Shown: one piece after another, positions 1 through 14,515 of the stretch | How the letters are laid out: every line of letters starts with the position of its first letter | Position numbering within the stretch: the first letter of the stretch is position 1 | DNA from: Thiomonas sp. X19 | Lineage (GTDB): Bacteria > Pseudomonadota > Gammaproteobacteria > Burkholderiales > Burkholderiaceae_C | DNA: 17,182 bases | Reading direction: 5' to 3' | Assembly (NCBI RefSeq): GCF_900089495.1 | Contig: NZ_LT605203.1 | Location: forward strand, 3,011,017 to 3,028,198 | Translations under genes and position numbers: made by a program | Notes under the pieces: model-generated | Databases searched by the model: none | The model's input: the letters and a program-made list of their open reading frames with translations, nothing else | What the model was told of the DNA's origin: nothing

Positions 1-485
1 CCAGCAGGAATGGGACGCTGATACGGTGGAATGCTCCGAGAGCGCCACGGCTGCCTTCCAGGCGCAGTGCAATCAGGTTGGCCAGCGAACCGATGCCCAG
101 GCCAAAGCCGCCGACATTCACCGCCACGGCCAGCGCGGTGTAGTCCGTGGTGTAGTGCGACAGCAGCACGGCGGTGGGGACGTTGCTGATGAACTGCGAC
201 AGCAGCGTGCCGCCCAGAAACATCACCCAGGCCTGTTTCCAGTCCAGCGTCTGCACCAGTGCTTGCACCGGAGGCCATTGCGCCAAATGCCCCAGCCCCA
301 GGAACATGGCCGCGAACGTTGCCAGCAGCAGCCAGTCCACCTGCTTCAGCACGTCGCGGTCGGTCAGCACGAAAACGGCCAGCACCAATCCGCAAGCCAG
401 CGATGCGCGCCCCTCTTGGAGCAAAACCACCGTGGCTGCAAGCAGTAAACCCGCGACCACGCCAAGCATGGGGCGCTTGGGCGCG
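1..485 (-). pseudogene. SLC13/DASS-type permease, C-terminal part, 5' end cut off by IS3
   Basis: The reverse strand is open from 485 to the window edge and encodes about 160 residues of a polytopic membrane protein. Hydrophobic runs, a loop motif SQFISNVPTAVLLS and a downstream GGFGLGIGSLANLIALRL segment are visible. The SN-x-x-T type motif and the glycine-rich segment after it are typical of the second half of SLC13/ArsB/CitM-like anion permeases, which move carboxylates or inorganic anions across the inner membrane. The N-terminal half is absent because the IS3-family element begins at 486, and no start codon of the original gene remains. The 3' end continues past position 1, so the C-terminus cannot be judged. 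The family is fairly sure; the substrate cannot be inferred. The gene is almost certainly non-functional unless it is expressed as a half protein. Confidence 0.72.
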
Positions 486-535: not shown

Positions 536-859
536 ATGAACAAGTCAAACAAGTTTTCCCCTGAAGTCCGCGAGCGCGCCGTGCGGATGGTGCAGGAGCA
601 CCGCGGTGAGTACCCCTCGCTGTGGGCCGCTGTGGAGTCGATTGCCCCCAAGATCGGCTGCTCGGCGCACACCCTGCTGGAGTGGGTCAGACGCGACGAG
701 GTCGATGCAGGCACGCGCCCAGGCGTGACCTCGGCAGAAGCGCAGCGGGTCAAGGATCTGGAGCGCGAGGTCAAGGAATTGCGCCGGGCCAACGAGATCC
801 TCAAGCTGGCCAGCGCGTTTTTCGCCCAGGCGGAGCTCGACCGCCGACTCAAGAGCTGA
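536..859 (+). CDS. IS3-family transposase OrfA (DNA-binding subunit)
   Basis: This 107-residue protein has an N-terminal helix-turn-helix of the HTH_Tnp_1 type ([14 protein letters not shown] at the start, then a second helix around [12 protein letters not shown]). A C-terminal leucine-zipper-like coiled coil follows ([18 protein letters not shown], roughly residues 70-90). This is the normal OrfA layout: it binds the terminal repeats and supplies the N-terminus of the OrfAB transposase. The ATG at 536 is preceded by GAGAATGGAGCC. Near the end, GTTTTTC at 817-823 lies in the phase expected for a -1 ribosomal slip (GCG TTT TTC read in frame 0), which joins this frame to the downstream one. OrfA ends at a TGA at 857-859. 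Confidence 0.9.
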
Positions 860-1767
860 AGGCATTTGTTGATCAATATCGTGACCGCTTCGGGGTCGAG
901 CCGATCTGCAAGGTCTTGCAGATCGCCCCAAGCGGTTACCGCCTGCATGCGGCCCGGCAGCGCCATCCTGAGTTGCTGCCGGCACGCACCCAGCGCGATC
1001 AGCGGCTGATCCCCCACATCCAACAGGTCTGGCAAGCGAACATGCAGGTCTATGGCGTTGACAAGGTCTGGAAGCAAATGCACCGCGAGGGTGTGGTGGT
1101 GGCGCGCTGCACGGTGGAGCGGCTGATGCGCAGGCTCGGATTGCAGGGCACCAGGCGCGGCAAGGTCGTGCGCACCACGATCCCTGACGCCAAGGCGCTG
1201 TGTCCGCTGGACCACGTCCACAGGGTCTTCAAGGCTGCGCGGCCCAATGCCCTTTGGGTGTCCGACTTCACCTACGTGTCCACCTGGCAGGGCTGGCTGT
1301 ACGTGGCGTTCGTCATCGACGTCTTCGCCCGGCGCATCGTCGGCTGGCGGGTGAGCAGTTCCATGCGCACGGACTTTGTGCTCGACGCGCTGGAGCAGGC
1401 GCTCTATGCCCGCCAACCCGAGCGGGACGATGCCTTGATCCATCACTCAGACAGAGGTTCGCAATATGTCAGCATTCGCTACACCGAGCGGCTGGCTGAA
1501 GCTGGGATTGAGCCTTCTGTAGGCAGCAAGGGCGACTCCTATGACAACGCCCTGGCCGAGACGATCAACGGGCTGTATAAGACCGAGCTGATCCATCGCC
1601 GTGCCCCCTGGAAGACCAAAGAATCGGTGGAGCTGGCGACCCTGGAATGGGTAGCTTGGTTCAACAACCACAGACTGATGGAACCCCTGGGCTATATCCC
1701 GCCGGCAGAAGCTGAGGCAAACTACTGGCGGCAGCAAGCCAGTCAGGCCACCACGGTGGCGGCCTGA
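820..1767 (+). CDS. IS3-family transposase OrfB / catalytic part of OrfAB
   Basis: This is the rve/DDE integrase-core transposase, read in the -1 frame relative to OrfA. The recognisable protein starts at about [19 protein letters not shown] (from 853). An HTH_21-type region follows, with [14 protein letters not shown] and [12 protein letters not shown]. The catalytic core shows all three acidic residues: D in [11 protein letters not shown] in HHSDRGSQY and E in [17 protein letters not shown]. No good independent start codon precedes the conserved region, so production as an OrfAB fusion through the GTTTTTC slip at 817-823 is more likely than separate initiation; the start given here is the slip site. 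No internal stop or lost catalytic residue is seen, so the element may still be active. Confidence 0.88.
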
Positions 1768-1806
1768 CTTAGACCAACTGGCCTCCACGGAACCCGGGGC
1801 GGTTCA

Positions 1807-2669
1807 AAGCGCCGCGCGTGAGCATTGCCGGTCTTGGTGATCGAGCCGCGCCGCACACTGTTGCCGCTGGAATGCTCCGAAGGCACGAGTCCAAGGTAGC
1901 CCATGAGCTGGCGCGCCGTGCCGAAGCGGCTGATGTCTCCGACCTCGCACACCAGGCCGATGGCGCTGACGGTGTCGATGCCGCGCAGCGCCCGCAGCGC
2001 CGCCACGACCGGCTCGAAGCGCCAGCCTTGGACTATCTGCTGCAGCGCAGCCGTCAACCGCTGCACTCGCTCCTCGGTCGCTTGCACGGCCAGTTGGTAT
2101 TCCGTCAGCGCGATCTGATCTGCAGGGTGAGCAAAGTGCTGATCGGCGATCCAGCGCTGATGCATCTTGGTCCAGGACGTCTTGCCGGCATAGCGGCGGT
2201 CCTGGCGCAGCAGGAACGCTTTGAGCTGTTGACGCACCTTCAGGCGCAGGTTGACCGCGTCCTCGCGTGCCCGCCAGAGATTGCGCATCGCTTCGTGGGC
2301 CTCGTCGGGCACCCAGATGGCCTTGAGCTCGCCGGCGCGCGACAGCTCGGCCAGCCGGGCGCAATCGCGCCGATCAGTCTTGATTCGTTCGCCTGCTCGC
2401 CGCGGTATCAACGAGGGTGCAATGATCTCGCAGCGATAGCCGCGCCGAGTCAGCTCTCGATGCAGCCCGTAGCCGGTGGGCCCGGCCTCGTAGACCACGC
2501 TCACCTGCCGCGCCGGACCGTACTTGCGCAGCGTCTTGAGAACCCCCTGCACGTCGGGCCCGAGGGTGCCCACGAAACGGCTCGGCTCTCGCCCGGCTTC
2601 GCACACAGCAACCGCGATGCTGTCCTTGTGCGCATCCAGACCAACGAAGAACTTGATACTCTCGTCCAT
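1807..2669 (-). pseudogene. IS110-family DEDD transposase, C-terminally truncated
   Basis: The start is set at the ATG at 2669 (MDESIKFFVGLDAHKDS), because the family begins with this FVGLDAHK-type motif; a longer reading frame to 2741 adds only non-conserved residues. The N-terminal RuvC-like DEDD domain is intact: D12 in GLDAHKDS, E61 in VVYEAGPTGYGL, and D99/D102 in KTDRRDCARL. The C-terminal Tnp_20 region includes LRGIDTVSAIGLVCEVGD and VPSEHSSGNSVRRG, whose serine pair is where the family's catalytic serine sits. Native coding ends after GNAHARR (about residue 287). The reading frame then runs into the IS3 terminal repeat and adds roughly 20 foreign residues. Full-length relatives continue for some tens of residues, so this copy is judged defective. 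Confidence 0.85.
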
Positions 2670-2792
2670 GGCTCGTCTCCATACGGTTTGCGGCTGGGGA
2701 AACCCGCCGCATGTGGCTCGGCACACTCTCAGAGTGCGCAATCCACGATACCGGAGACGGGCCTTCCTTCGCCTATAGAGCGACCATCATGT
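2670..2792 (-). ncRNA. candidate IS110 left-end / bridge-RNA region
   Basis: In IS110-family elements the non-coding end upstream of the transposase encodes a structured bridge RNA that specifies target and donor DNA. Here the stretch upstream of the transposase start is retained and holds a stem-loop, GCACACTC (2721-2728), loop TCA, GAGTGCGC (2732-2739), pairing at seven of eight positions. The position and hairpin fit a bridge-RNA region. No target or donor loop was identified, and the transcript is inferred only from family knowledge. Confidence 0.3.
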
Positions 2793-2796
2793 CTAG
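2793..2796. repeat. target-site duplication CTAG, left copy
   Basis: CTAG immediately outside the left inverted repeat of the IS5-family element; it matches the copy at 3628-3631. Confidence 0.75.
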
Positions 2797-2805
2797 ATAA
2801 TGTCG

Positions 2806-3207
2806 TCACGAGATATGCAGCCAGAGGGCGAGACAGCGAATTTGCACGGCGGCAACGAATGAGGCGACGTTTTTCGCGTAGCGCGTCGCGATTCCCCTCC
2901 ACCGCTCGAGATGCAGGAAGGCGTTCTCGACCAGATGGCGTAGCTTGTCGAGCGCTTTGTCGTACGTTCTGGGTTGCTTGCGATTCTTGCGCGGCGGAAT
3001 CACGGCCTGGGCACCTTGCGCTTGGGCTTTCGCCACGATGGCATCGCTGTCGTAGCCTTTGTCAGCAAGCAGGCAGTCCATCTTGAACCCGTCCATCAAC
3101 TGCTCAGCCTCTGCGCAATCTGCTCGGGTACCTTCTGTAATAGCCGCTCTGAGCGGCAGACCATGCGCATCCACGGCCAGATGTATCTTGGTGTTGAGCC
3201 CCCTTTT
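2806..3207 (-). CDS. IS5-family (IS427-type) transposase OrfB, catalytic C-terminal half
   Basis: The frame is open from 3291, but recognisable transposase sequence begins at the frameshift run, with KRGLNTKIHLAVDAHGLPL. Next come ITEGTRADCAEAEQLMDG, LLADKGYDSDAIV (second catalytic aspartate), AVIPPRKNRKQPRTYD, and VENAFLHLERWRGIATRYAK, which holds the catalytic glutamate and the Y-x2-R-x3-E-x6-K-like signature of the DDE_Tnp_1 family. It is in the -1 frame relative to OrfA, and the slip sequence is AAAAGGGGG. The protein ends within the left inverted repeat region. No internal stop is seen, so the element looks transposition-competent. Confidence 0.82.
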   Translation of the reverse strand, partial: KRGLNTKIHLAVDAHGLPLRAAITEGTRADCAEAEQLMDGFKMDCLLADKGYDSDAIVAKAQAQGAQAVIPPRKNRKQPRTYDKALDKLRHLVENAFLHLERWRGIATRYAKNVASFVAAVQIRCLALWLHIS

Positions 3208-3569
3208 GTACGGCTCATGCCCTGATTGCTTCCACGCGCTCCCGCTGCGTGCGGGTGAACCTTGCAATGGCTGGCATCCAGCATGAGCCATTCGTAGTCG
3301 GGCTCAACCATGAGTTGCTCCAAGAGCGACTCCCATACGCCCCCGTCACGCCAGCGACAAAAACGTCGATGGGTGTTTTTCCACCCGCCATACGAGGCCG
3401 GTAGGTCTCGCCACGGCGCGCCGGTGCGAAGAATCCAGAACACGGCATTGATGAATTGGCGGTTGTCCAGCGCAACCCCACCCCAAACACCCGCTCGTCC
3501 CGGCAAAGAGGGTTCGAGCAAGGCCCAGTGCCTGTCTGAAATGTCGTGTCGATGAAGAGTCTCTGCCAT
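3096..3569 (-). CDS. IS5-family (IS427-type) transposase OrfA
   Basis: This is the N-terminal half of the transposase (DUF4096-type). It has DISDRHWALLEPSLPGRAG, FINAVFWILRTGAPWRDLP and WKNTHRRFCRWRDGGVWE, then LMLDASHCKVHPHAAGARG, which contains the first catalytic aspartate (MLDAS). The start is placed at the ATG at 3569 (MAETLHRHDISD). An upstream ATG at 3611 lies against the terminal inverted repeat and is less likely. The conserved reading leaves this frame at the AAAAGGGGG run (minus strand, 3207-3199); beyond it the residues to the stop at 3096 are out-of-frame sequence. The family makes the full transposase by frameshifting between OrfA and OrfB. Confidence 0.82.
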   Translation of the reverse strand: MAETLHRHDISDRHWALLEPSLPGRAGVWGGVALDNRQFINAVFWILRTGAPWRDLPASYGGWKNTHRRFCRWRDGGVWESLLEQLMVEPDYEWLMLDASHCKVHPHAAGARGSNQGMSRTKGGSTPRYIWPWMRMVCRSERLLQKVPEQIAQRLSS

Positions 3570-3627
3570 CTCAAGAGCGCGGTTGTTGAGAACAACGCCA
3601 TCATGCCACATCTCGTGACGACACTAT

Positions 3628-3631
3628 CTAG
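3628..3631. repeat. target-site duplication CTAG, right copy
   Basis: CTAG immediately outside the right inverted repeat of the IS5-family element; it matches 2793-2796. Confidence 0.75.
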
Positions 3632-3654: not shown

Positions 3655-4359
3655 TCAGGTCGATGGCAGGTTGCCGACAACCCGCTGAGCTGCCTGCTGA
3701 ATATGGAGCAGCGAGAGCCTTTCAGCTTCCTGCTGGTCGCCGCTCAGGACTGCATCGAGGATTCGCGCGTGCTCGTCCCACACCCGATCACGAACGGTCG
3801 ACGGCTCAAGCACGGTAACCATTGCCCGCCGCAGGTGATTCCAATAGAGGCGCAGTGTCTCCAGAAGCAGCGGATTGCCGGCCGACTCATATATCCATAT
3901 GTGAAATGACATGTCGGCACTTGTGAGTTCCGCGATACGTCCATCTCGCAGAGCGGCATGCCCGCGCTCCATCAACGCGTCTACACGCTCCCGCGACAGC
4001 TTGTCGCTGTGTCGAGCGGCCAGCTTTGCCGCCATGGGGTCAAGAGACTCGCGCAGCTCATAGAGCGACTCGAAAAAAGCTCGACGTATCGGTGCCACTA
4101 GCAAGCCTCGACGGCCGGAGTCCTGCACGAAATCCTGCGATCTGAGTACCGTCAGCGCCTGCGTCACGGGTTGACGTGACACGTTCAGTCTGGCGGCAAG
4201 CTCGTCCTGATTGAGACGGTCGCCTGGACGAAGGATCCCTCCGCATATTGCCTCCAGAATCGATGAATAGACCTGCTCATACAGGGACGGCGACGTCTGC
4301 GGAATGCTGATCTGAATGCTACGGTGTTGCGCTTGAAACGTGATCGGTGCAATGGGCAT
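3655..4359 (-). CDS. GntR-family transcriptional regulator, FCD (FadR-like) subfamily
   Basis: This 234-residue regulator has an N-terminal winged helix-turn-helix (residues about 25-90: YSSILEAICGGILRPGDRL, then DELAARLNVSRQPVTQALTV). A C-terminal all-helical FCD ligand domain follows. The metal- or ligand-binding residues of FCD domains are present: D149 and H153 in ADMSFHIWIYESAGNP, H197 in WDEHARILDAV and H219 in LLHIQQA. Regulators of this subfamily usually repress catabolic genes and are released by an organic acid or acyl-CoA. The start at 4359 is chosen for the AGG six bases upstream; ATG 4383 and TTG 4422 are alternatives. It is the last gene of the same-strand cluster, about 166 bases after the tandem beta-helix gene, so it probably controls the hydroxyisobutyrate cassette. 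The effector is an inference: 2-hydroxyisobutyrate or its CoA ester. Confidence 0.87.
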   Translation of the reverse strand: MPIAPITFQAQHRSIQISIPQTSPSLYEQVYSSILEAICGGILRPGDRLNQDELAARLNVSRQPVTQALTVLRSQDFVQDSGRRGLLVAPIRRAFFESLYELRESLDPMAAKLAARHSDKLSRERVDALMERGHAALRDGRIAELTSADMSFHIWIYESAGNPLLLETLRLYWNHLRRAMVTVLEPSTVRDRVWDEHARILDAVLSGDQQEAERLSLLHIQQAAQRVVGNLPST

Positions 4360-4525
4360 ATCGGACCTACGAACAACTTCCATGGTGTGCTTTGATGGCA
4401 ATAAAGTGTTCAAGCTCGCCAACCCTGGGAACTATACAGGGACCTATAGAATCGTCCGGGTCCACTCGCGCGTGACCATGCACTTCAAGGCGACGCGCTC
4501 GGTGGACGATCCACCTGACGACGGT

Positions 4526-5626
4526 TCAGCGATCCGCACCGCGCAGAACAGCCTCCTGGTTGGCCGCAAACTCAGTCGCGTACTCGCGATAGATCTCGGC
4601 CGATACCTGAATGACTTGATGCATGCGGCCGCTCATGCGGGACATGGCGCGCGCCGGACGGCCGCCCCACAACCACCCGCTCTTGAGTACTTGTCCTGGA
4701 GCGGTACATGACCCTGCGGCAACGAACGTGTCGTCCATGACGACAGTGCCAGGTGCCAAGGTACTCCCCATGCCGACCAGGACGCGCGCACCAACGGTGC
4801 AGTCATGCAACAGCACGTTGTGCCCAATCGTTGACCCTTCGCCGACCCTTACCAGGTGCTCCTCGGAACGCAGAACAGTATTGTCCTGAACGTTCGCGCC
4901 CGAGGCGATGGTGACACCGAGCGCGCCGGACTCCAAGACGCAGCCAAACCAGAGGCTGCTGCCTTCCCCCATGCGAAGGGTGCCTGAGCCCGTAACAGTC
5001 GCCGCCACGTAGCCGTGATCGCCGCCGCTGATTGCGACCGAGTTCGCAACCCGCTCAATCGCCTTTGACGAACCAATCAGCCCGTCAGCTCGTACGCGTT
5101 TATGCAGCTCGCGCAATTCGACTGAATCTAGAGGTCGCATTGGTACCGCAGGCGACCCCTCACACCACTGCCCGGGGGGCAACACGCTTCGGGGATAGAC
5201 CACTGACCCGGCAGCCACGACGCAGCCCTTTCCGACAATCGCGCCATCCAGTACTGCGACGTTTTCCTCGATGACGCAGTCATCGCCCACGGTGCACGCG
5301 TGGACGACTGAGTTAGATCCGATGGTGACACGCGCTCCGAGCTTCGCACTATAGAGCTCGTGCGCGATGTGCACCGTGCTATGCAGGCCGAGATACAAGT
5401 TGTCCCCGACTTCGACCACATGGCCATCACCACGCAGGACGGCAAACGGCCCGAGTATGGCGTCGTTGCCCAACGTTACCCGTCCAAGTACGGCACTCCC
5501 AAATCCGCTGGAGCGCACGGGCCCGTTGAAGGCGGGTCGAACCCCCATGTACTCAAGCACGAAGGGGGAGGCCTCAAGCGCGCTCATGGTTCGCATCGCC
5601 AACCGCACCCCGCGCTTCCAGTCCAC
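4526..5626 (-). CDS. tandem gamma-carbonic-anhydrase / PaaY-like left-handed beta-helix protein
   Basis: This protein of up to 366 residues is made of two hexapeptide-repeat (left-handed beta-helix) domains, about 25-170 and 200-335, each ending in a helical tail. Each resembles a full gamma-class carbonic anhydrase/YrdA/PaaY/CaiE unit, normally a single-domain trimer of about 180-200 residues. Domain 1 keeps the LRGD segment (64-67) and histidines at 86 and 109, but Ser104 replaces the histidine of the usual GHN motif. Domain 2 has GHNVLLHDC with H269 and H274, but Arg253 replaces the first ligand and the RGD segment reads ESG (232-234). Members act as carbonic anhydrases, carnitine-pathway proteins or thioesterases (PaaY). 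Its place in a CoA-ester cluster favours a hydrolase or housekeeping role, but this is inference. The GTG at 5626 lies 25 bases after the adenosyltransferase gene; ATGs at 5596 and 5587 are alternative starts. Confidence 0.85.
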   Translation of the reverse strand: MDWKRGVRLAMRTMSALEASPFVLEYMGVRPAFNGPVRSSGFGSAVLGRVTLGNDAILGPFAVLRGDGHVVEVGDNLYLGLHSTVHIAHELYSAKLGARVTIGSNSVVHACTVGDDCVIEENVAVLDGAIVGKGCVVAAGSVVYPRSVLPPGQWCEGSPAVPMRPLDSVELRELHKRVRADGLIGSSKAIERVANSVAISGGDHGYVAATVTGSGTLRMGEGSSLWFGCVLESGALGVTIASGANVQDNTVLRSEEHLVRVGEGSTIGHNVLLHDCTVGARVLVGMGSTLAPGTVVMDDTFVAAGSCTAPGQVLKSGWLWGGRPARAMSRMSGRMHQVIQVSAEIYREYATEFAANQEAVLRGADR

Positions 5627-5651
5627 CGACCTGTGTCCACACGCCTCAGCC

Positions 5652-6227
5652 TCAAGTACTTCCGACCCTTGTTGTACGACCAGCAGTGGATGGCCAATAG
5701 ACCTCGGCCACGCCGGCGTGCCTGTTCAATACCTGAGCCAGTACAAAGAGGAGATCGGAAAGGCGGTTCAGGTACGGCACTCGCGCCGACGATGCGATGG
5801 GATCAATCTGTTCGAGGGAAACGATCGCGCGTTCGGCCGAACGACACGTCGTTCGCGCAATGTGACAGATTGCCGCCGGCTCGGATCCGCCAGGAAGAAT
5901 GAATTCCGTCAGAGGTGGAAGGCCAGCGTTGAATCGCTCGATCTCTTGACCCACATAGTCGACGCGCTCACTCGAAAGAACAAGTTTTCCGGGCTGACAA
6001 AATTCTGCACCCAGATCGAACAAGTCATTCTGAACCGTTGCGATCACGCGCTGGATATCTGGATCGACGACCTTGCTCATCAGCAAACCAAGCATGGAGT
6101 TCACTTCGTCGACGGCACCCAAAGCACAGACGTATGGGCTGTTCTTCCCTACGCGAGTGCCGCCAGCAAGTGAGGTTTCACCCGTGTCACCGGTCTTGGT
6201 TGTGATCTGACTCAAGCGATAGCTCAT
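5652..6227 (-). CDS. PduO-type ATP:cob(I)alamin adenosyltransferase
   Basis: The 191-residue enzyme transfers the 5'-deoxyadenosyl group of ATP to cob(I)alamin, making the adenosylcobalamin that the neighbouring mutase needs. The N-terminal ATP-binding loop TKTGDTGETSLAGGTRV (10-26) is complete. DEVNSMLG (40-47), SERVDYVGQEIERFN (86-100), FILPGGSEPAA (109-119), the helix ICHIARTTCRSAERAIV and LNRLSDLLFVLAQ (153-165) carry the residues conserved in PduO/MMAB proteins. The ATG at 6227 is chosen because GGAGA lies about nine bases upstream; a GTG at 6242 is in frame but has no such site. It follows the 103-residue gene by about 127 bases on the same strand. A dedicated cofactor enzyme next to a B12-dependent mutase suggests cassette-style acquisition. 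Confidence 0.92.
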   Translation of the reverse strand: MSYRLSQITTKTGDTGETSLAGGTRVGKNSPYVCALGAVDEVNSMLGLLMSKVVDPDIQRVIATVQNDLFDLGAEFCQPGKLVLSSERVDYVGQEIERFNAGLPPLTEFILPGGSEPAAICHIARTTCRSAERAIVSLEQIDPIASSARVPYLNRLSDLLFVLAQVLNRHAGVAEVYWPSTAGRTTRVGST

Positions 6228-6354
6228 GTCGGAGTTCTCCACTGTTGATCGTCGCTTTGGCCGCTTGGCGTTGAAGGTTCTTTTCTCATGGTTCCTACCC
6301 CAACCACAGACGATCGATCAATATTCATAGGGTTCCCCAGCGCCCTGTGGGCGA

Positions 6355-6666
6355 TCAAGGCTGCCGAAAAGACAGAGCCCGGGTATTCCAGACGCGATCC
6401 ATGTGCTCGAAGGCGCGCTGAATGTCTTCTGGACTCAAACTCGCCGCCACGGCGCTGCAGTAGCCTTCAAAGGCTGCACATCGCGTCGGATCAAGCCGAC
6501 GCAGGAGAGCGTAGCGATGCAGCGCCAGTTTGTCGTGCCCTTTGCGCGTACTGTCGACAAGCAATTGCTCGGCGGCTTGAGCGCTCCCTGTGGTCGCGAT
6601 CTCCTTCTTCAGGCGTCGGATTTCCTGACGCGTGAGAAGCAGTCGGACAACATCTTCCTCATGCAT
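6355..6666 (-). CDS. uncharacterised 103-residue protein coupled to hcmA
   Basis: I do not recognise this protein. Its ATG lies two bases after the stop of hcmA (TGA CC ATG), so translation is probably coupled. The first 50 residues are strongly charged and look helical (RLLLTRQEIRRLKKEIA, then KGHDKLALHRYALLRRLDP). The C-terminal half includes SLSPEDIQRAFEHMDRVWN. There is no signal peptide, membrane segment or metal-binding cluster; two cysteines (63, 70) are spaced seven apart. Its position in the mutase operon suggests a small accessory factor, or an adaptor for the mutase-chaperone complex, but that is inference. The following 127 bases before the adenosyltransferase gene contain only a short hairpin (CGCCC TGT GGGCG, 6341-6353) without a T-tract. 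Confidence 0.72.
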   Translation of the reverse strand: MHEEDVVRLLLTRQEIRRLKKEIATTGSAQAAEQLLVDSTRKGHDKLALHRYALLRRLDPTRCAAFEGYCSAVAASLSPEDIQRAFEHMDRVWNTRALSFRQP

Positions 6667-6668
6667 GG

Positions 6669-8360
6669 TCAGAACACCGGCACTTCGCGATAGGTTCCCC
6701 AGATGGACTTGAGGCGCTCGATGATGTCACCCATGCTTGCACCAGCGCGCACGAGTTCGATCGTGACCGGCATGATGTTTTGCTTTTCATCCTTGGCCAC
6801 CGCCACCAGCTCATCGAGCAACGTGTTGACCTTCACGCCGTCGCGCTCGCGCCGGATGCGCCGGAGTCGCTCGATCTGCCTCCGCTCGGCAGTCGGATCA
6901 TGTGGATGAGTTTCCAGGTCAGCCACCTCGCCGGGTTCCTGGAATCGGTTCACGCCAATCACTGGTTTATCCCCGCTTTGCTTGTTCAGCGCCTGCTCGT
7001 AGGAGAAGTCCGCGATGTGGCGCTGGAACCATCCTTCCTCGATCAGCTTGATGGTGCCGCCGTTGTTCTCGACCTCCTCCATGATCTCGAAGACCCTGCG
7101 CTCGTACTCGTTGGTGAGGTGCTCGACGTAGTACGAACCGCCGACCGGATCCACGACCTCCGTGACGTGCGCCTCTTCAGCGATGATCTGTTGCGTTCGC
7201 AGCGCGATCTTCATCGCCTCCTCGGTCGGAATCGAGAAAGCCTCATCCATTCCGTTGGTGTGCAGACTTTGTGCACCACCCAACACCGCCGACAGGGCCT
7301 GAATCGCAGTGCGAACGATGTTGATCTTGTATTGCGGCTTGGTCAGCGTGGCGGCTGCCGTTTGACAGTGGAACCGCAGTCGCATCGATTCCGGATTCGT
7401 GGCGCCGAAGCGATCACGCATGATCTTTGCGTAGACACGACGTGCAGCGCGAAACTTGGCGATCTCTTCGAAGAAATCTGTTTGGCACACGAAGAAGAAC
7501 GCCAGGCGAGGCGCGAACTCGTCCACCCGCATGCCTGTCTCCAGCACCGCTTCGACATAGGTGACCAGGTTGCACATCGTGAACGCCACTTCGTGCAAGG
7601 GCGACGAGCCGGCTTCGGAGATGTGATAGCCCGATACGTTGATCGGGTTGTAACGTTTCATGTTCTTCGCGCAATACGTGATGCAATCGCGCACGATGCG
7701 CACCGATGGCGCGATCGGAAAAACATACTCCTTCTGCGCCATGTATTCCTTGAGGATGTCCGCCTGGATCGTGCCCGACAGCTTGTTCATGTCGTAGCCG
7801 CGCTGCTGCGCAAGTGCCACATACATCGCCAGAAGGATCCAGGCCGACGGGTTGATGGTGAGCGACACCGAAATCTTCTCAAGGTCGATGCCGTCCAGCA
7901 GCGCTTGCATGTCGGCGAGTGTGTCGATCGCCACGCCTTCGCGCCCCACCTCACCTTCTGACATCGGGTGGTCAGAGTCGTAGCCCATCAAGGTCGGCAT
8001 GTCAAAGTCCGTGGATAGGCCGGTTTGACCCTGCGCTATCAAGTATTTGAACCGCTTGTTGGTGTCTTCCCCGGTCCCGAAACCAGCGATCTGGCGCATC
8101 GTCCACGTGCGGCTGCGATACATCGTCGGGTACGGTCCACGCGTGAACGGGTATCGGCCTGGCAGGCCGATGTCCTCAACCGGGTGGTCCTCGATGTCAA
8201 GCGCTGTGTATGTGCGCTTCAGCGGAAAGCCCCCGTAGGTGAAAAACTGCTCCTTCTTCTCCGTTTGCTTGGCAAGGAACGCGGCAACCTCTGTAGCCTC
8301 CCATTCCTTGACTTGTGCTTGCAGCGATTGTTTGGCTTCGGTCGCAGGCTTGGCGTTCAT
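6669..8360 (-). CDS. hcmA: 2-hydroxyisobutyryl-CoA mutase, large (substrate-binding) subunit
   Basis: The 563-residue subunit holds the TIM-barrel CoA/substrate domain of B12-dependent acyl-CoA mutases without the cobalamin domain, which is encoded by hcmB. YPFTRGPYPTMYRSRTWTMR (70-89), SGTIQADILKEYMAQKEY, SGYHISEAGSSP with H246, and RLRFHCQTAAATLTKPQ are classic for the family. The specificity positions read Ile91 in RQIAGFG and Asp118 in LSTDFDMP. These correspond to Ile90 and Asp117 of the Aquincola tertiaricarbonis enzyme, whereas methylmalonyl-CoA mutase has Tyr at the first. It should therefore convert 2-hydroxyisobutyryl-CoA to 3-hydroxybutyryl-CoA by a radical carbon-skeleton rearrangement. 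The start overlaps the meaH stop (ATGA), with AAGGA just upstream. Isobutyryl-CoA mutase is the main alternative, argued against by these residues and by the hcl neighbour. Confidence 0.93.
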   Translation of the reverse strand: MNAKPATEAKQSLQAQVKEWEATEVAAFLAKQTEKKEQFFTYGGFPLKRTYTALDIEDHPVEDIGLPGRYPFTRGPYPTMYRSRTWTMRQIAGFGTGEDTNKRFKYLIAQGQTGLSTDFDMPTLMGYDSDHPMSEGEVGREGVAIDTLADMQALLDGIDLEKISVSLTINPSAWILLAMYVALAQQRGYDMNKLSGTIQADILKEYMAQKEYVFPIAPSVRIVRDCITYCAKNMKRYNPINVSGYHISEAGSSPLHEVAFTMCNLVTYVEAVLETGMRVDEFAPRLAFFFVCQTDFFEEIAKFRAARRVYAKIMRDRFGATNPESMRLRFHCQTAAATLTKPQYKINIVRTAIQALSAVLGGAQSLHTNGMDEAFSIPTEEAMKIALRTQQIIAEEAHVTEVVDPVGGSYYVEHLTNEYERRVFEIMEEVENNGGTIKLIEEGWFQRHIADFSYEQALNKQSGDKPVIGVNRFQEPGEVADLETHPHDPTAERRQIERLRRIRRERDGVKVNTLLDELVAVAKDEKQNIMPVTIELVRAGASMGDIIERLKSIWGTYREVPVF

Positions 8361-9334
8361 GCTTGTCCTTGAAGGTTGAAGCCGGCAAGCAGTTGCTCTG
8401 CGGCTTGGTATGGGGAGATCTGGCGATCTGAGAGTCGTGCGGAGATGGCGGTCAAGGTGCTCTGACGCGCATCCAGAAATCGCTGGGCCAGCAGGTCTTC
8501 CGCGGTCTTGAGCATTCGAAACTCTGCGATTTTGCGCAGGCGCTGCTGCCCTGCGCTGGAGTTGCGTATGTGCTGCGAATGGCGATCAAGACATTCGATC
8601 AACTGCTCGAATCCCTCGCCCTTGGCAGAGCTGGTGGGAACCACGGGAGGCTGCCACAAGCTACTGCCATCCAACGACAGACCCATGGTGAGCATTGCCT
8701 TGAGATCACTGATCGTACGATTGGCGTCCGAACGGTCGCACTTGCTGACAACGTGGACGTCCGCAATCTCCAGGATGCCTGCCTTGATGGCCTGAATGTC
8801 GTCGCCCAGGCCAGGTGCCGATACGACAACGACGGTGTGAGCGGCCCTCGCAATCTCGACTTCAGCCTGACCGACACCGACGGTTTCAATGATGACATAG
8901 TCGAATCCGGCGGCGTCGAGAACGTCGACCGCTTCCAGCGAGGCGCGCGCCATGCCGCCGTGGGCACCGCGTGTAGCCATGCTTCGGATGAATACGCCCT
9001 CGTCGTTGACGAGTTCCGACATGCGAATACGGTCTCCCATGATGGAACCGCCGGAGTAGGGGCTGGAAGGGTCGACGGCGATGATTCCGACACGCTTGCC
9101 CAGCGCACGCAGTTTCAGCGTGAGCATCGAAACCAAGGTGGACTTTCCACTGCCCGGCACGCCTGTGATGCCGATGACACGCGACCTGCCCGCCTTGGCG
9201 TACAGGCGCGCGAACGCAGGACGACACTCCGGCGAGGCGGCCTCGGCGCGGCTCATCAGGCGCGCCATGGCCGCGTTGTCGCCTGCAAGTGCGCGCTCGA
9301 CAAGCGCGTCGGAGCGTACAGGCGTGGCCATCAT
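8357..9334 (-). CDS. meaH: MeaB-like G-protein chaperone of the mutase
   Basis: The 325-residue G3E-family GTPase protects B12-dependent mutases and gates cofactor loading. It shows a P-loop GVPGSGKS (58-65), then DPSSPYSGGSIMGDRIRM (88-105), a signature of the MeaB/ArgK branch, and ETVGVGQAEVE (150-160) as switch II. The base-specificity motif reads SKCD (197-200) where most relatives have NKAD/NKxD, a small deviation at the first residue. Its start overlaps the ligase stop by four bases (ATGA) and its stop overlaps the hcmA start by four, so hcl-meaH-hcmA are translationally coupled. No clear Shine-Dalgarno precedes its ATG, consistent with coupling. The symbol follows the MeaB homologue of 2-hydroxyisobutyryl-CoA mutase clusters. 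Confidence 0.9.
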   Translation of the reverse strand: MMATPVRSDALVERALAGDNAAMARLMSRAEAASPECRPAFARLYAKAGRSRVIGITGVPGSGKSTLVSMLTLKLRALGKRVGIIAVDPSSPYSGGSIMGDRIRMSELVNDEGVFIRSMATRGAHGGMARASLEAVDVLDAAGFDYVIIETVGVGQAEVEIARAAHTVVVVSAPGLGDDIQAIKAGILEIADVHVVSKCDRSDANRTISDLKAMLTMGLSLDGSSLWQPPVVPTSSAKGEGFEQLIECLDRHSQHIRNSSAGQQRLRKIAEFRMLKTAEDLLAQRFLDARQSTLTAISARLSDRQISPYQAAEQLLAGFNLQGQA

Positions 9335-10776
9335 GCGGTGCTTGAGGTCAGGCGTTGGGCCATCTGCCTGAAGACCTCGCGGTCGTCGATGACCCGGCGT
9401 GCCTTGAAGTCGGTGCGCGGATAAGTTCCGGGTTCTACGACTTCGATCATCGTGCGCAGCCCGAGCATGGTGTGCACCGAGGCAGCCACCTGGCTCCTGA
9501 ACGCCTCCAATGCCTGAGCGCCCTTGGCGGTCAGGTCCGGCGTGGCTTCCACTCGAAGCAGCAGCTCATCCATGTGACCGTCGCGACTGATCACGATGCG
9601 GTGTTCGCCGCCGTAGTCGTCCAGCTTGCTCAACGCCGCATCGATCTCGCTCGGATAGACGTTTTCACCACGTATGGTGAACATGTCATCAATGCGGCCG
9701 AAGATGCCCTGAGGCAGTCTGGGATACGTGCGCCCGCAGGGTGTCTTCTCGTTGGTCCAGAGCGCGAGGTCTCCGGAGAGCAACCGGATCATGGGCTGCG
9801 AAGTGCGCTCCAGATGCGTGTAGACCGGCGTGCCACGCTGCCCATAGGGAACGCGCTCGAAGGTAGCCGGGTCGCACACCTCCGTGTAGCAGACATCCTG
9901 CCAGCAGAGCATGCCCATCGACGACTCAGCCGACGCCGCCACGTTCATGAAGGGCGACATCTCGGCCATCGATCCGCAGTCGAAGACCTCAGCCTTATAC
10001 GCCTCCTTGATGCGATTGCGTACGCCCGGCACGGAAGCACCCGGCTCACCGGAAAAGAACATCCGCTCGACGCCGAAGTCTGCGGCGCTCAGGCACTCTT
10101 TCGTTGCCGTCTCGGCCAAGTACAGCGCATACGAAGGCGTGCCGTAGAAGGCCTGGGGCCTCATCATGTTTAGCCACTGCACCGCTCGCGAGGACATTCC
10201 TGGCGCTCCGGCACCAAAGGGGAATGCTTTGGCGCCCAGTCGCTCTGCGCCGGCGAGCGCGCCCCAGCTACCCATGTAAAGGCTCAAGATGGCGGCGACA
10301 AAGACAATGTCGCCCGGCCGGATTCCCATTCCCCACATGACGCGTGCGTGCGCATTGGCTATGCTCTGCCAGTCGTCACGGCCGATGGCAAATGCAGTCG
10401 GGTGCCCTGTTGTGCCTGACGTGCCGTGGATATGGAAGATCTCGCTCTCGGGGATGCAAAGATAGTCGCCAAAGGGCGGAGCGCGGTGTTGCGCAGCGCG
10501 CAGGTCCGCCTTCGTGACCACCGGGCAGCGGCGCTCGAAATCTTCCAGGGATCGGACTTGGCTCGGATGAAAGCCCGCATCATCCCACTTGACGCGGTAG
10601 AACGCGCAACTGCTGTAGGCGTAGTCGCAGACTTCTCTGAGGCGTTGCACGATGGCTTCATCGCGCTCGCCGGCATCCATGGTCTCTCTGACGGGAAACC
10701 AGTAACGGCTGCCGTCCGTGGGGCGGTACGTGTTGTCGTAACGCGGAGGCCAGCTCCATGACTCCATCGCTTGCAT
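9331..10776 (-). CDS. hcl: 2-hydroxyisobutyrate-CoA ligase, phenylacetate-CoA-ligase-like
   Basis: The 481-residue adenylate-forming enzyme of the PaaK-like branch should activate 2-hydroxyisobutyrate with ATP and CoA, giving AMP and the substrate of the mutase. Visible motifs are the phosphate-binding loop GTSGTTGHPT (118-127), FDCGSMAEM (265-273) in the place of the aromatic/TE motif, SGDLALW (334-340), the hinge GRIDDMFTIRGENVYPSEID (360-379), and the C-terminal catalytic lysine K458 in YPRTDFKARRVID. The ATG at 10776 is preceded by GAGGG eight bases upstream. It lies 31 bases after hcmB and overlaps meaH. The substrate is inferred from the mutase-specific context; by sequence alone it is a PaaK-family ligase for a small or aromatic acid. 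Confidence 0.88.
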   Translation of the reverse strand: MQAMESWSWPPRYDNTYRPTDGSRYWFPVRETMDAGERDEAIVQRLREVCDYAYSSCAFYRVKWDDAGFHPSQVRSLEDFERRCPVVTKADLRAAQHRAPPFGDYLCIPESEIFHIHGTSGTTGHPTAFAIGRDDWQSIANAHARVMWGMGIRPGDIVFVAAILSLYMGSWGALAGAERLGAKAFPFGAGAPGMSSRAVQWLNMMRPQAFYGTPSYALYLAETATKECLSAADFGVERMFFSGEPGASVPGVRNRIKEAYKAEVFDCGSMAEMSPFMNVAASAESSMGMLCWQDVCYTEVCDPATFERVPYGQRGTPVYTHLERTSQPMIRLLSGDLALWTNEKTPCGRTYPRLPQGIFGRIDDMFTIRGENVYPSEIDAALSKLDDYGGEHRIVISRDGHMDELLLRVEATPDLTAKGAQALEAFRSQVAASVHTMLGLRTMIEVVEPGTYPRTDFKARRVIDDREVFRQMAQRLTSSTA

Positions 10777-10807
10777 CGCTAGTGCCCTCGAGCGGTAACG
10801 CAGTGGC

Positions 10808-11215
10808 TCATCGCTCGCCGCGCTCTGCGACGAGGCGTTCGATCGTCTGGATGATCGTGTTGGGCGGAGTGTCCTGCAGAAGAACTTCGTGCACGCCCAT
10901 TTGCTTCAGCGCCAAAACATCTTCATCGGGCATGACGCCGCCGCCAACGAGGATCATGTCGTCGACCCCGCGTGCCTTGAGCCCACTGATGATCTTGGGG
11001 AAGATCGTCATGTGGGCGCCAGATAACAGACTGACACCCAGCACATCGACGTCTTCCTGCACTGCGGCGGCCACAACTTCTTCAGGCGACCGGTGCAAAC
11101 CGGTGTAAACAACGTCCATGCCAGCATCGCGCAGACAGCGTGCGACGATCTTGACGCCTCGGTCATGGCCATCGAGGCCGACTTTGGCAAGCAACACGCG
11201 AATCTTGTTCGTCAT
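10808..11215 (-). CDS. hcmB: 2-hydroxyisobutyryl-CoA mutase, small (cobalamin-binding) subunit
   Basis: The 135-residue Rossmann-like B12-binding subunit carries the DxHxxG signature DGHDRG (15-20), whose histidine (H17) is the lower axial ligand of cobalt in base-off/His-on binding. SLLSGAH (62-68) and GGGVMP (91-96) contact the dimethylbenzimidazole tail pocket. It pairs with HcmA to form the mutase. The ATG at 11215 (MTNKIRVLLAKVGLDG) is chosen because AAAGGA lies about nine bases upstream and family homology begins there; a longer open frame reaches 11311 but is unconserved. It is the first gene of the operon. The split small subunit of about 135 residues matches hydroxyisobutyryl-CoA and isobutyryl-CoA mutases rather than fused methylmalonyl-CoA mutase. 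Confidence 0.93.
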   Translation of the reverse strand: MTNKIRVLLAKVGLDGHDRGVKIVARCLRDAGMDVVYTGLHRSPEEVVAAAVQEDVDVLGVSLLSGAHMTIFPKIISGLKARGVDDMILVGGGVMPDEDVLALKQMGVHEVLLQDTPPNTIIQTIERLVAERGER

Positions 11216-11401: not shown

Positions 11402-12715
11402 CTGACCATCCATCACAACGCAATCATCCCCCGCCTCCGACCGGCCAGGATCGTTGTCGTCGACCGGCCAAGATAGCTGACGCCGCCCAATCCCATGGCC
11501 TTCGTGCAAGCCGCGTTGCGCCTGGGTGATGCTCCGATGCCCGACTTCACAACGCGCACCGGACGGCGAGTGTTGATGTCCCATTTCGACGGCGATGGCT
11601 GGGTCAATGCCTGCCAAGGACCAGGCTCTGCGCTGGCAGGGCAAGTTCTCGTGGAGGAGTTTCTGACCCGGTATGACATCCCGATCCTGGGAAGCATCAT
11701 CGTCGACGAGGTCGATCACCACGGCGAATATCCCGCCACAGCCACCGAAGGCCAGGCATGGGCACGCAAGATGTTTGCGCTTCCCAACATCGAGGTGGGC
11801 AGCCACACCTGGGCGCATCCCTTCAACTGGGTCGAGGCGGCGAAATGCCACTGTCGGGGACAGATCTCGAAAGACTACCCCTACGGGAATTTCCTGCCGT
11901 TTCCGGGTTACGCGTTCAGCACCCACCAAGAAGTGGTCGGTGCGCGCGACTACATCGAACAAAAACTCGCACCACCCGGCAAGCCCTGCAAGGCCTTGCT
12001 CTGGCCCGGGGACTGCAACCCGCCGAACCATGCCGTGGCGCTGTGCGATGAATCAGGCCTGCTCAACGTCAACGGCGGCGGGGTCACGATGCGGCCTCAG
12101 AACCCGTCGCTCACCGCGGTGTGGCCCCTTGGGGTGCCCAAGGGCAAGTGGTTCCAGGTCTATGCGGCGTGTTCCGACGAAGAGGATTACACGAACAACT
12201 GGAAAGGCCCTTATTTTGGGTTCGAGAACGTCATTGAGACGTTCGAGATGACCGATCACCCAAGACGGCTGAAACCGGTGGAGATTGACTTCCACCCCTA
12301 CATCGTCACGCGTGGCGGCAGCCGACGCAAGCATCCAGGCCCCGTCTTCGCCAGAGCTTGGGGGTTGCGGGTTGGAACGAGCATGCCGAATTCCGCTATC
12401 TCCACCTCGCCGCGAACCGCGCTGACATGGCGACGGGCGGACAAGCAGCCGACGCGATCCCAAGGCTGGTGGACGTGAACGTGGACGTCACGCATCTGTC
12501 GGTGACCGATCGGCATGTGGCGATCGGTCTGGCTGGCTACGCCCAGGTGCAGGCGAACTTGGCGTTGCCGCAGGGATGGACTGTGAAGCCGGCGCGGGGC
12601 ATCCACTTGGCGCATGACGGCGCTACGGTGGTGGTGACAAGCGAGCAGCGATCGGTCCGCATCGAGGTGGTGCGAACGGGTCTGTCCGCGCCGTCGGACT
12701 GCTCGGTCAGACCAG
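11402..12715 (+). pseudogene. PelA-like GH114/polysaccharide deacetylase remnant
   Basis: The forward strand encodes the deacetylase part of a PelA-like exopolysaccharide protein. RIVVVDRPR (11447 on) is followed by an in-frame TAG at 11474. Then come FVQAALRLGDAPMPDFTT, the active-site motif LMSHFDGDGWVN, GSHTWAHPFNW (metal-binding histidines), KALLWPGDCNPP, LLNVNGGGV, PYFGFENVIETFEMTDHPRR and KPVEIDFHPYIVT. Homology then breaks near 12310-12356 and resumes in another frame with GVAGWNEHAEFRYLHL through VVVTSEQRSVRIEVV to about 12690. The N-terminal glycoside-hydrolase half is missing, there is a stop codon, and a deletion plus frameshift removes part of the linker. The longest intact stretch is 11495-12478. 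Such proteins act on Pel-type polysaccharide in the periplasm; this copy should be dead. Confidence 0.75.
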
Positions 12716-12717
12716 GC

Positions 12718-13638
12718 TTATCCCGCCAGCGCTCCCGCACGCTCCAAAGCTTCCACCACCACCGAGCGCGACACGGCTGCGGACACAGGCTTGCCGATGT
12801 CCTCGATCAGCACGCAATGCACCTGCCCGGCAGCGCCAGCCTGATCCACCGGAAGCGATTCCAGCCACCGCGCTGCTGCCACGCGCGGCACACGCATGGG
12901 CAAGCCACAGCGGCCAAGCAAGTCCAGCAGCCGCTTGGCACTGACCTCGGACTGCACGCCCTGAATCGCCCCGATGTCCGTGGCCAGCACCATGCCCAGG
13001 GCCAGCGCCTCACCATGCAGGTAGCGTCCATAGCCCAAAATCGACTCGACCACCTTGCCCAGGGCCCACCCGAAATCCAGGTGCGGCGGTACGCGACGCT
13101 GCACCCGATCCGCAATGTCGATGGTCTCGCGCAAGGCCTGCGCCTGTTGCATCATCTGCCCCACCGCCTTGGCGTCGTGGGAGAGAATCGCATCAACGTT
13201 CACTTCCAGCCACGCAAAGAACACGGCATCGCCCACAGCGGCGCACTTGATCACCTCGGCCAGGCCGGCGGCGCGTTCGCGCGGGGACTCTTCGCGCGCC
13301 TGCAACGCGCTGCGCAGTCCCTGGGTCAACCGTGCCCAGGTCGAGGTGTTGGCAGGCGGTGCTTTGACGACCGGCTGGCTCGATGGCGCGCTTTGCGCCT
13401 CTTCTGCAATCGGCATGTCGGCGGCTGGTTGCGGGCGCACCGCAATCAAGCCCAGCGCTTCCAGAGAAGACAACGATTCCAGGCTCAACTCGGCACTGGC
13501 CAGAAGAGCGAGCAGTTCCTCGTCGCTCTTGCGGCCGTCGATGAGCAAGAGCAAGGTCCGACTGGCGCGACTGAGCGCCGGTTGGCGTGTGCTCAGGGTC
13601 TGGCGACCAGCGGGTGTTTTTTCGTAGATGGCGGGCAT
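12718..13638 (-). CDS. unknown N-terminal region joined to a defective 3-dehydroquinate-synthase-like C-terminal domain
   Basis: The protein has 306 residues. Residues 1-70 (PALSRASRTLLLLIDGRKSD, ELLALLASAELSLESLSSLE) resemble small helical regions of uncharacterised betaproteobacterial proteins. A Pro/Ala/Gln-rich linker follows (about 70-100). Residues 120-300 look like the C-terminal metal-binding half of AroB: RAAGLAEVIK (122-131) keeps the glutamate ligand E128, and YLHGEALALGMVLA (206-219) keeps histidine H208. The usual FGHTFGH reads FGWALGK (189-195), so that histidine ligand is lost, and the DKK motif reads DQA. The NAD-binding N-terminal half of AroB is absent. Catalysis is therefore unlikely; a regulatory or scaffolding role is possible. 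GAGGAG lies about six bases before the ATG, so it looks expressed. It converges on the PelA remnant. Confidence 0.72.
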   Translation of the reverse strand: MPAIYEKTPAGRQTLSTRQPALSRASRTLLLLIDGRKSDEELLALLASAELSLESLSSLEALGLIAVRPQPAADMPIAEEAQSAPSSQPVVKAPPANTSTWARLTQGLRSALQAREESPRERAAGLAEVIKCAAVGDAVFFAWLEVNVDAILSHDAKAVGQMMQQAQALRETIDIADRVQRRVPPHLDFGWALGKVVESILGYGRYLHGEALALGMVLATDIGAIQGVQSEVSAKRLLDLLGRCGLPMRVPRVAAARWLESLPVDQAGAAGQVHCVLIEDIGKPVSAAVSRSVVVEALERAGALAG

Positions 13639-13896
13639 CCCCGTCTCCTCATCGAGATTGGTACATCCTTTTTACGCAGCAGCGCCCCAATCAAGGGTAT
13701 CGATTTGTTGCGGCGTTGCGCAGGTGACACGCGAGTGCGTAACAGGTGGCGGCGATCGGGTTGGCCTGAAAAGCCGGCAGCAATCGGCACCCCGCAATGC
13801 GGTGTGAGAGGTTTGATCGCCATCGCCAGGATTCCCCAGAGGGGAAACGGCCGTCGGCGGAGCCAGGAAACGAGACAAAGCGCTGAGCGGCCTCGC
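13639..13896 (-). other. intergenic stretch with Ash/Icd-like coding remnant
   Basis: On the reverse strand one frame reads LLPAFQANPIAATCYALACH and ends RNAATNRYP with a stop at about 13691. The overlapping frame reads GFSGQPDRRHLLRTRVSPAQRR. Phrases like these recur in small proteins annotated as Ash or Icd-like host-division inhibitors of P4-type satellites. No start codon with a ribosome-binding site is seen and no frame is complete, so this is treated as a remnant rather than a gene. It also serves as the upstream region of the AroB-like gene and the downstream region of the H-NS-like gene. Confidence 0.35.
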
Positions 13897-14199
13897 TCAG
13901 GCGATGGCGAACGCGGTGATGTCCTGGCCCGCGGCGATCTCCGCAGCCAGCCAGCGCGGATGCTTGCCTCGTCCCGTCCAGGTCTGGCCGGTCGTCGGGT
14001 GGCGGTACTTCGGCGCGACCGTGCGGCCCTTGCGAAAGCTGGCGCGCTTGCCGCCCAGGTCTTCCAGGGTGATGCCATAGTCGGCCATCTTTTGCTGGAT
14101 CTCGGCGATCACGCTGGCCAGTTCCGCGCGGCGGGCAGCGTCGGCCCGGGCGGTGAGCGCGGCAATCTGGGCTTGCAGTTCGGCGTAGGTCGGTGTCAT
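13897..14199 (-). CDS. H-NS-family nucleoid-associated protein
   Basis: This is a 100-residue H-NS-like protein. The N-terminal half is a coiled-coil oligomerisation region (YAELQAQIAALTARADAARR, then LASVIAEIQQKMADYGIT). A short linker leads to the C-terminal DNA-binding domain PKYRHPTTGQTWTGRGKHPR (63-82), which holds the GRGKHP core that inserts into the minor groove of AT-rich DNA. Proteins of this kind silence foreign genes, and betaproteobacterial mobile islands often carry their own copy. The start at 14199 (MTPTYAELQ) is preferred because AGGG lies nine bases upstream; the ATG at 14208 abuts that site. It is flanked by an Ash/Icd-like remnant and an integrase fragment, which suggests it came with a mobile element. 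Confidence 0.92.
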   Translation of the reverse strand: MTPTYAELQAQIAALTARADAARRAELASVIAEIQQKMADYGITLEDLGGKRASFRKGRTVAPKYRHPTTGQTWTGRGKHPRWLAAEIAAGQDITAFAIA

Positions 14200-14353
14200 G
14201 CGGAGCATCCCTTTTGGAAAATGTCCTCAGCTTATCGCTGCACACCAGGAACAGCAAGACTGATTGCTGGGAGCAGCCCAGTAGCAAGGCTGACCGGCTC
14301 GCAAGGCACCAAGCCACGCTCCCGATTGGTGGATGCATATTCGCGGGCGTGCC

Positions 14354-14515
14354 AAGGAGCACGCCCTACCCTACATTGGCCGCTTGCCCATTGCAGAGAT
14401 CACCCCCGCGCAGATACTCGCTGTTGCGCGCCGTGTTGAGAAACGCGGCTTGCTGGAAACAACGCGCGGCGCCGTGCGATTCATCGGGCAGGTGATGCGC
14501 GATGCCATCGCCACG
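14354..14515 (+). pseudogene. tyrosine integrase (P4-type) fragment
   Basis: The forward frame encodes about 50 residues resembling the core-binding domain of P4-like tyrosine recombinases: ALPYIGRLPIAEITPAQILA, then RRVEKRGLLETTRGAVRF and GQVMRDAIAT. The catalytic domain and the N-terminal arm-binding domain are missing. At its 5' edge lies a perfect inverted repeat GGGCGTGC (14345-14352), loop of six, GCACGCCC (14359-14366). At its 3' side the frame runs directly into transposase sequence. It is a decayed remnant of a former integrative element. Confidence 0.6.

Follow-up and report, generated by a model that had tools for sequence, protein, structure and literature searches.

The window, a 17,182-nucleotide stretch of the Thiomonas sp. 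X19 genome (contig NZ_LT605203.1), carries at positions 3655-11215 what is, judged from its sequence, very probably a chromosomal and probably horizontally acquired 2-hydroxyisobutyrate operon that seems to have been reduced from a larger arrangement. 2-Hydroxyisobutyrate is a key intermediate in fuel-ether breakdown, and the mutase that acts on its coenzyme A (CoA) ester is of interest for the production of methacrylate precursors. At the sequence level, the case for the operon is made by family identities, signature residues, gene order, and the absence of a lyase and a dehydrogenase gene. The genome amounts to 4.67 Mb in three contigs, and the window lies within a contig of 4.64 Mb.

Gene content and order of the operon

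Eight intact open reading frames (ORFs), all on the minus strand, follow one another in the transcription order hcmB, hcl, meaH, hcmA, orf103, adenosyltransferase, tandem hexapeptide protein and GntR/FCD regulator. The eight-gene, same-strand cassette of the original prediction was thereby recovered, together with its 4-bp ATGA overlaps between hcl and meaH (9331-9334) and between meaH and hcmA (8357-8360); the remaining junctions are gaps of 31 bp (hcmB-hcl), 2 bp (hcmA-orf103), 112 bp (orf103-adenosyltransferase), 25 bp (adenosyltransferase-hexapeptide protein) and 103 bp (hexapeptide protein-gntR). The profile families matched are MM_CoA_mutase, MeaB, AMP-binding, B12-binding, Cob_adeno_trans, Hexapep and GntR with FCD.

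The small, B12-binding mutase subunit is encoded by hcmB (10808-11215; PF02310, TIGR00640), a product of 135 residues from an internal ATG; its start is most likely at 11215 rather than at the first ATG of the ORF at 11311, and counterparts in the same position in L002-L006 and L008 are 90-96% identical. The 2-hydroxyisobutyrate-CoA ligase gene hcl (9331-10776; AMP-binding and AMP-binding_C_2) and the MeaB-type GTPase chaperone gene meaH (8357-9334; TIGR00750 at 321.3 bits against a cut-off of 240.75), the latter with an ATGA overlap on each side, are followed by hcmA (6669-8360) for the large subunit of the mutase. The last gene on the strand encodes the GntR/FCD regulator (3655-4422; PF00392 and PF07729), which is 75% identical to its counterpart in the same place in L002.

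For comparison, 325 hcmA-encoding stretches were obtained from one scan of genome contigs, and the closest 80, three plasmid loci and the window make up 84 HcmA rows, so that the counts given below describe nearest relatives; the rows are also interdependent (L022, L033, L047 and L082 are near-copies). Fifty-one rows, the window among them, are well flanked, their sequence extending 3 kb or more upstream and 4 kb or more downstream of the core. The order hcmB-hcl-meaH-hcmA is kept in 50 of these 51, with hcl in the same place as in the window, the exception being L044, which is without hcl; such an arrangement is not due to chance. In the same 51 rows, anywhere in the fetched stretch, gntR is present in 40, the tandem protein in 37, a lyase in 27, an adenosyltransferase in 17, an orf103-like gene in 13 and a 3-hydroxybutyryl-CoA dehydrogenase in seven; orf103 and the adenosyltransferase diverge fast and are probably under-counted at the thresholds applied.

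Identity of the mutase

By sequence, HcmA is a 2-hydroxyisobutyryl-CoA mutase. Its residues 8-563 align with PDB 4r3u, named 2-hydroxyisobutyryl-CoA mutase large subunit, at 1012 bits, and the runner-up PDB chains are a methylmalonyl-CoA mutase (447 bits) and fused isobutyryl-CoA mutases (272 bits). Ile91 and Asp118, whose positions we take to be diagnostic for the substrate pocket, are the same residues in all 84 aligned rows (83 loci and the window), and in six of six more distant mutases of related bacteria Tyr and Ala occupy these positions. A separate B12-binding subunit is clustered with hcl and meaH, and a search of the Thiomonas sp. X19 genome for a second mutase at E 1e-100 or better returned none.

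The family matches, the 4r3u score and the signature residues thus agree with the earlier assignment of a mutase, ligase and MeaH core. Bit scores and signature residues rule out HcmA as an isobutyryl- or methylmalonyl-CoA mutase; the question of whether it would fall inside the isobutyryl- or ethylmalonyl-CoA mutases was judged without an outgroup tree, and it was answered in the negative for the isobutyryl enzymes, ethylmalonyl-CoA mutase not having been compared by name.

Probable reduction from a larger arrangement

The simplest reading of the present gene set is that the operon is a reduced form of a larger arrangement with a 2-hydroxyacyl-CoA lyase and a 3-hydroxybutyryl-CoA dehydrogenase, genes that would have been lost rather than never present, as parsimony on the HcmA tree suggests. 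In the nearest relative, L002, a dehydrogenase and a lyase gene sit exactly between orf103 and the adenosyltransferase gene, that is, at the junction which in the window measures 6243-6354 on the minus strand, and the lyase of L002 is split over two frames. The window and L003 are sisters (SH-like approximate likelihood-ratio support of 90), both without a lyase, and eight of the 11 rows of the enclosing clade have one. Across the tree, lyase presence is clustered, with 11 changes against 28 in shuffles. No lyase was found in the window, nor a clear orthologue elsewhere in the genome. Two points weigh against the inferred loss: the tree is a quick one with weak forks, and the broken lyase of L002 may be an assembly error, since L002 is a metagenome bin.

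A lyase homologue occurs in 41 of the 84 rows, on the opposite strand or upstream of the core in a few of them (e.g., L035, L039, L068, L069 and L077). Full-length copies in L031 and L047 pass the NCBIfam 2-hydroxyacyl-CoA lyase model (cut-off 600) at 805.6 and 737.3 bits, and the second part of the broken L002 gene reaches 352.2 bits; beyond the profile-tested copies, lyases were assigned from tblastn hits of at least 250 bits with the copy of Methylibium petroleiphilum PM1 or of L031. The closest PDB entry to the PM1 copy (L082, 14586-16346) is the lyase 7pt1 (551 bits), presumably from Actinomycetospora. For actinobacteria, a 2020 article describes the lyase as an alternative to the mutase, and it mentions a pairing of the two for Desulfococcus biacutus (PMC7176365); a 2026 article treats the lyase in the mutase cluster of Mycolicibacterium ELW1 as a possible minor route (PMC13188929). 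The lyases in or near mutase clusters, that of PM1 included, suggest a combined route from acetone and formyl-CoA to 3-hydroxybutyryl-CoA, and their frequency raises the question of whether some bacteria run the pathway from these two compounds.

As had been expected from the letters alone, the operon has no dedicated 3-hydroxybutyryl-CoA dehydrogenase. The genome yields five 3HCDH_N matches, three of them weak and two strong in long frames of 810 and 823 residues; by their domain content, the proteins of these two frames could supply the dehydrogenase step.

The tandem gamma-carbonic-anhydrase-like protein

Two genes of the operon that had been left unexplained can now be assigned a fold, one as a tandem gamma-carbonic-anhydrase-like protein and the other as a helical, TPR-like protein of 103 residues. 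The latter, orf103 (6355-6666), has no Pfam family in the search made; its AlphaFold2 model is all-helical (predicted local distance difference test, pLDDT, 81), its TPR-like matches are weak (best E 0.15), and the search for relatives gave 14 proteins, of which one is 98% identical.

The tandem protein is encoded at 4526-5626, its start being uncertain because the model is poor over residues 1-12. Both halves resemble gamma carbonic anhydrases, which are the best match of the C half; the next-best families are PaaY and CaiE. The model (pLDDT 92.9, predicted template modelling score 0.91) has the left-handed beta-helix fold, and its structural matches are gamma carbonic anhydrases and PaaY. 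Only His86, His109 and His269 are invariant in the 53 full-length cluster copies, and all three are kept in 119 of 121 rows of a database set composed of the best 120 of 520 matches and the window protein, which overlaps the cluster copies; the other two rows are fragments of 261 and 239 residues. The three proposed zinc histidines do not lie within one domain: His86 and His109 belong to the N half and only His269 to the C half, and by motif spacing they correspond to His81, His122 and His117 of Cam, respectively. The remaining ligand positions vary: the N half has Ser104 there, and the C half has Arg253 and His274, the last being histidine in 60 of the same 121 rows. His89 and His69 are retained in 119 and 110 of those 121 rows, each being histidine in just 41 of the 53 cluster copies, and His89 is invariant in a 64-row alignment. 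The other active-site residues are sorted as well: the N half alone conserves R65 and D67, whose C-half equivalents are not kept, and N245, Q247 and D248 are conserved only in the C half. In Cam, one monomer supplies two of the zinc ligands and the adjacent monomer supplies His117 (PMC4519908). Since the Cam site spans neighbouring monomers in this manner, the fused protein keeps exactly the ligands of the N/C interface, and a zinc site built where the N half meets the C half is a likely consequence. The split-histidine pattern offers a direct test of how a metal site that spans several subunits is divided up once the genes are fused.

The association of the tandem gene with the mutase extends beyond the aligned loci. 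Among 299 genomes of the family, the present one included (thresholds E 1e-180 for the mutase and E 1e-40 for the tandem protein, with at most six and four first-look candidates, respectively, scored per genome), the mutase was found in seven and the tandem protein in eight, all seven being among the eight (Fisher 2e-13, uncorrected for relatedness); the match in G022 holds one internal stop, and the clusters of G126 and G331 are near-copies of that of PM1. Likewise, among 72,556 plasmid records, the mutase (at least 60% identity) occurs in three and the tandem protein (E 1e-40) in four, including those three. The presence of the tandem gene in 37 of the well-flanked rows suggests that the core is often not enough for the pathway to work.

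As to its activity, a genuine carbonic anhydrase, or a protein with a structural role and no hydrolase function, is a credible account that falls somewhat short of an even chance. The best matches of the C half speak for a carbonic anhydrase, as does the retention, in the 121-row set, of Asn245 (120) and Gln247 (all 121), which are equated here with the Asn73 and Gln75 given for Cam (PMC4519908); against it stand a pathway without an obvious need for bicarbonate and the next-best families, PaaY and CaiE, both of which are linked to CoA-ester catabolism. A PaaY-like thioesterase that hydrolyses trapped CoA thioesters is the preferred guess, proposed here tentatively and by analogy, because PaaY frees trapped CoA and a stalled B12 mutase would trap CoA as 2-hydroxyisobutyryl-CoA. 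PaaY orthologues are described as zinc-dependent thioesterases with a gamma-carbonic-anhydrase fold that win back the CoA tied up in a shunt product, and as homotrimers of single domains (PMC11110157), whereas the window protein has two fused domains, each with part of the site; one PaaY is also stated to hydrate CO2 (PMC467105).

Several observations count against a firm tie of this protein to CoA release in the pathway. It scores below curated cut-offs (NF050158, 154.7 bits against 250; PaaY TIGR02287, 95.1 against 319.6), and 14 of the 51 well-flanked rows have no tandem gene. In addition, a tandem gene without a mutase in the fetched stretch occurs in G160 (a 9.2-kb contig) and in Methylobacterium bullatum, both with the same histidine pattern, so the gene is not strictly tied to the pathway.

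The tandem gene also adjoins a putative hslO gene, which we assume to encode Hsp33, whether the mutase operon is present or not (L156, 6032-8024; downstream in L029, L031 and L058).

The divergent adenosyltransferase

The PduO-type adenosyltransferase (5652-6242; PF01923), whose true start may be an internal ATG, passes TIGR00636 at 182.4 bits against a cut-off of 108.45. Its motif reads CRSAER instead of CRRAER, so that the conserved arginine pair is lost, and the arginine of RRxER probably matters for catalysis in adenosyltransferases. In 26 rows, CR[ST]xER occurs in eight, which form one clade, the arginine pair in 17, and CKRARR in L050; the eight-row clade (support 99/94) contains the operon protein, L002, L004 and the first PM1-type copy. 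The pair is intact in the chromosomal copy of the same genome (C3:1712980) and in the second PM1 copy.

The claim that the cassette brings its own cofactor enzyme is weakened by the divergent clade, its lost arginine, and the normal copy on the chromosome. The human adenosyltransferase is reported to deliver the cofactor and take it back as well (PMC10356863), which makes a delivery role of the divergent copy conceivable. The operon copy may mainly carry or store the cofactor, with its synthesis left to the chromosomal copy, although this is less likely than not.

Proposed pathway and substrate

The following scheme concerns pathway flux and the roles of the accessory genes, and is offered as a proposal. 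HCL would make 2-hydroxyisobutyryl-CoA, which HcmAB with adenosylcobalamin would convert to (S)-3-hydroxybutyryl-CoA; MeaH would protect and reload the mutase, and host enzymes would complete the degradation. An acid intermediate is probably the signal for the GntR/FCD protein, and the tandem protein may free CoA from trapped thioesters.

Tert-butyl alcohol is presumably the substrate of the PM1 Rieske oxygenase, and the lack of a close relative of this oxygenase in the genome (best 45.8 bits) is a point against 2-hydroxyisobutyrate as the intended substrate. The mutase could instead act on another branched 2-hydroxyacyl-CoA (e.g., 2-hydroxy-2-methylbutyryl-CoA), with 2-hydroxyisobutyrate being incidental, and it would fit this view that strains with mutase-HCL clusters are said to be mostly from pristine sites (PMC7176365). 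The high similarity to the characterised enzyme and the intact signature residues render this alternative improbable.

Put together, many proteobacterial mutase clusters would carry an undescribed fused gamma-carbonic-anhydrase pair with sorted active-site residues (R65, D67, H86 and H109 against N245, Q247, D248 and H269), in which one kind of zinc site could arise only where an N and a C half meet, and which would act as a CoA-releasing thioesterase, here beside an adenosyltransferase that lacks an arginine and has turned cofactor escort; in its entirety, this combination is unlikely.

Probable acquisition and genomic surroundings

Among 28 genomes of the genus (G000-G027, the present one being G000), hcmA was found in three (G000, G022 and G024). 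The HcmA of G022 and G024 is 78% identical to that of the window, and closer relatives occur in the other genera, namely G054 (88%) and G257 (89%), as well as in L002 (91%), a bin that carries the label Ramlibacter and may or may not belong to another genus than G000. A horizontal origin of the operon is thus probable from sequence comparison, owing to its patchy presence in the genus and to HcmA proteins in other genera that are closer than those of the same genus. The guanine-plus-cytosine content of the operon genes (0.557-0.627, against 0.623 and 0.646 in the flanks) is only a weak hint.

The edges are as originally predicted, with an IS5-type insertion sequence (IS) of 839 bp on the left (2793-3631, minus strand; 25-nt inverted ends, 92% complementary) and a broken gene on the right, a pelA fragment (11495-12478, plus strand) that covers residues 451-725 of the 900-residue PelA of PDB 9cgy (E 2e-65). 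CTAG is found at both ends of the IS5-type element, perhaps as a target duplication, perhaps as a portion of the element ends; elsewhere in the genome, the element has copies at 93% and 73% and a piece of 53 bp.

That the cassette moves as a unit, in the form of a composite transposon or island, is by comparison improbable. Its attractions are the IS3-, IS110- and IS5-type transposase loci that stand in a row on the left (536-3631), the broken gene on the right, the scattered occurrence within the genus, and related loci on three plasmids typed conjugative. Matching IS copies on both sides were sought in about 55 kb, made up of the window with 20 kb to its left and 18 kb to its right, and the left-edge IS elements have no match on the right to bracket the operon, up to about 18 kb past the window; when this region was compared with itself, the only repeats were a tandem duplication to the right of the operon, one of 1.3 kb (73%) further right, and an 88-bp pair outside the window. 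The single transfer RNA call in the flanks (ARAGORN; L132, 9193-9274) adjoins an IS3-type transposase frame and was judged part of that element, and a tRNA-linked island was therefore rejected. The 88-bp direct repeat (98.9%; L130, 18527-18614, and L132, 8309-8396), about 27 kb apart around the window, is possibly a mobile-element remnant; as an att-like site it was discarded, no island structure being definable. The flanking EAL/GGDEF gene occurs in same-genus genomes, and as nothing else aligned (hits over 150 bp) with the fetched neighbourhoods, no empty site was definable.

Other features were observed in the flanks. A segment at 13444-17180 (3737 bp), which holds the EAL/GGDEF gene, an H-NS-family gene and part of an integrase, recurs with 100% identity immediately to the right (17184-20920), either as a recent tandem duplication or as an assembly artefact; the phage-type integrase fragment (14333-14626, plus strand) consists of the central domain only. 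The ORF at 12718-13638 (minus strand) has a 3-dehydroquinate-synthase C-terminal domain behind some 120 unmatched residues and looks fused or truncated. At the left end, a CitMHS-type transporter frame (2-469, minus strand) is missing the beginning of its family profile and stops next to an IS3-type element (536-1767, plus strand), which probably broke it.

Comparison with known systems

The core hcmB-hcl-meaH-hcmA is already known, and all eight genes of the operon have counterparts in Methylibium petroleiphilum PM1. The accessory genes of this known operon type deserve bench work. The ligase, mutase, MeaH and GntR regulator are described in the 2020 article (PMC7176365). With respect to the enzyme, the closest reference is 4r3u, whose source organism is presumably Aquincola tertiaricarbonis; the likeness lies in the 1012-bit alignment and the retained Ile and Asp, whereas the sequences are not identical (about 77%, judged by eye).

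With respect to the locus, the synteny check proposed against Methylibium matched every cassette gene in plasmid RPME01 of PM1 (L082), which shares gntR, hcmB, hcl, meaH, hcmA, the small ORF, the adenosyltransferase and the tandem gamma carbonic anhydrase. The PM1 locus differs in its plasmid location, its upstream and divergent gntR, its two adenosyltransferases, and the presence of a 2-hydroxyacyl-CoA lyase homologue and a 3-hydroxybutyryl-CoA dehydrogenase. Plasmids of Xanthobacter autotrophicus Py2 (L083) and Agrobacterium deltaense EL101 (L084) share the core, the tandem protein and the adenosyltransferase, and have no lyase within the stretch; in both, gntR is upstream and divergent, the tandem gene precedes the adenosyltransferase gene, and the adenosyltransferase retains CRRAER. 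Finally, ibc cluster 2 of Mycolicibacterium ELW1 shares the ligase, the mutase subunits, the auxiliary protein and a FadR/GntR regulator with the window, and additionally has a dehydrogenase, a thiolase, cobalamin biosynthesis genes and a thiamine-dependent lyase (PMC13188929).

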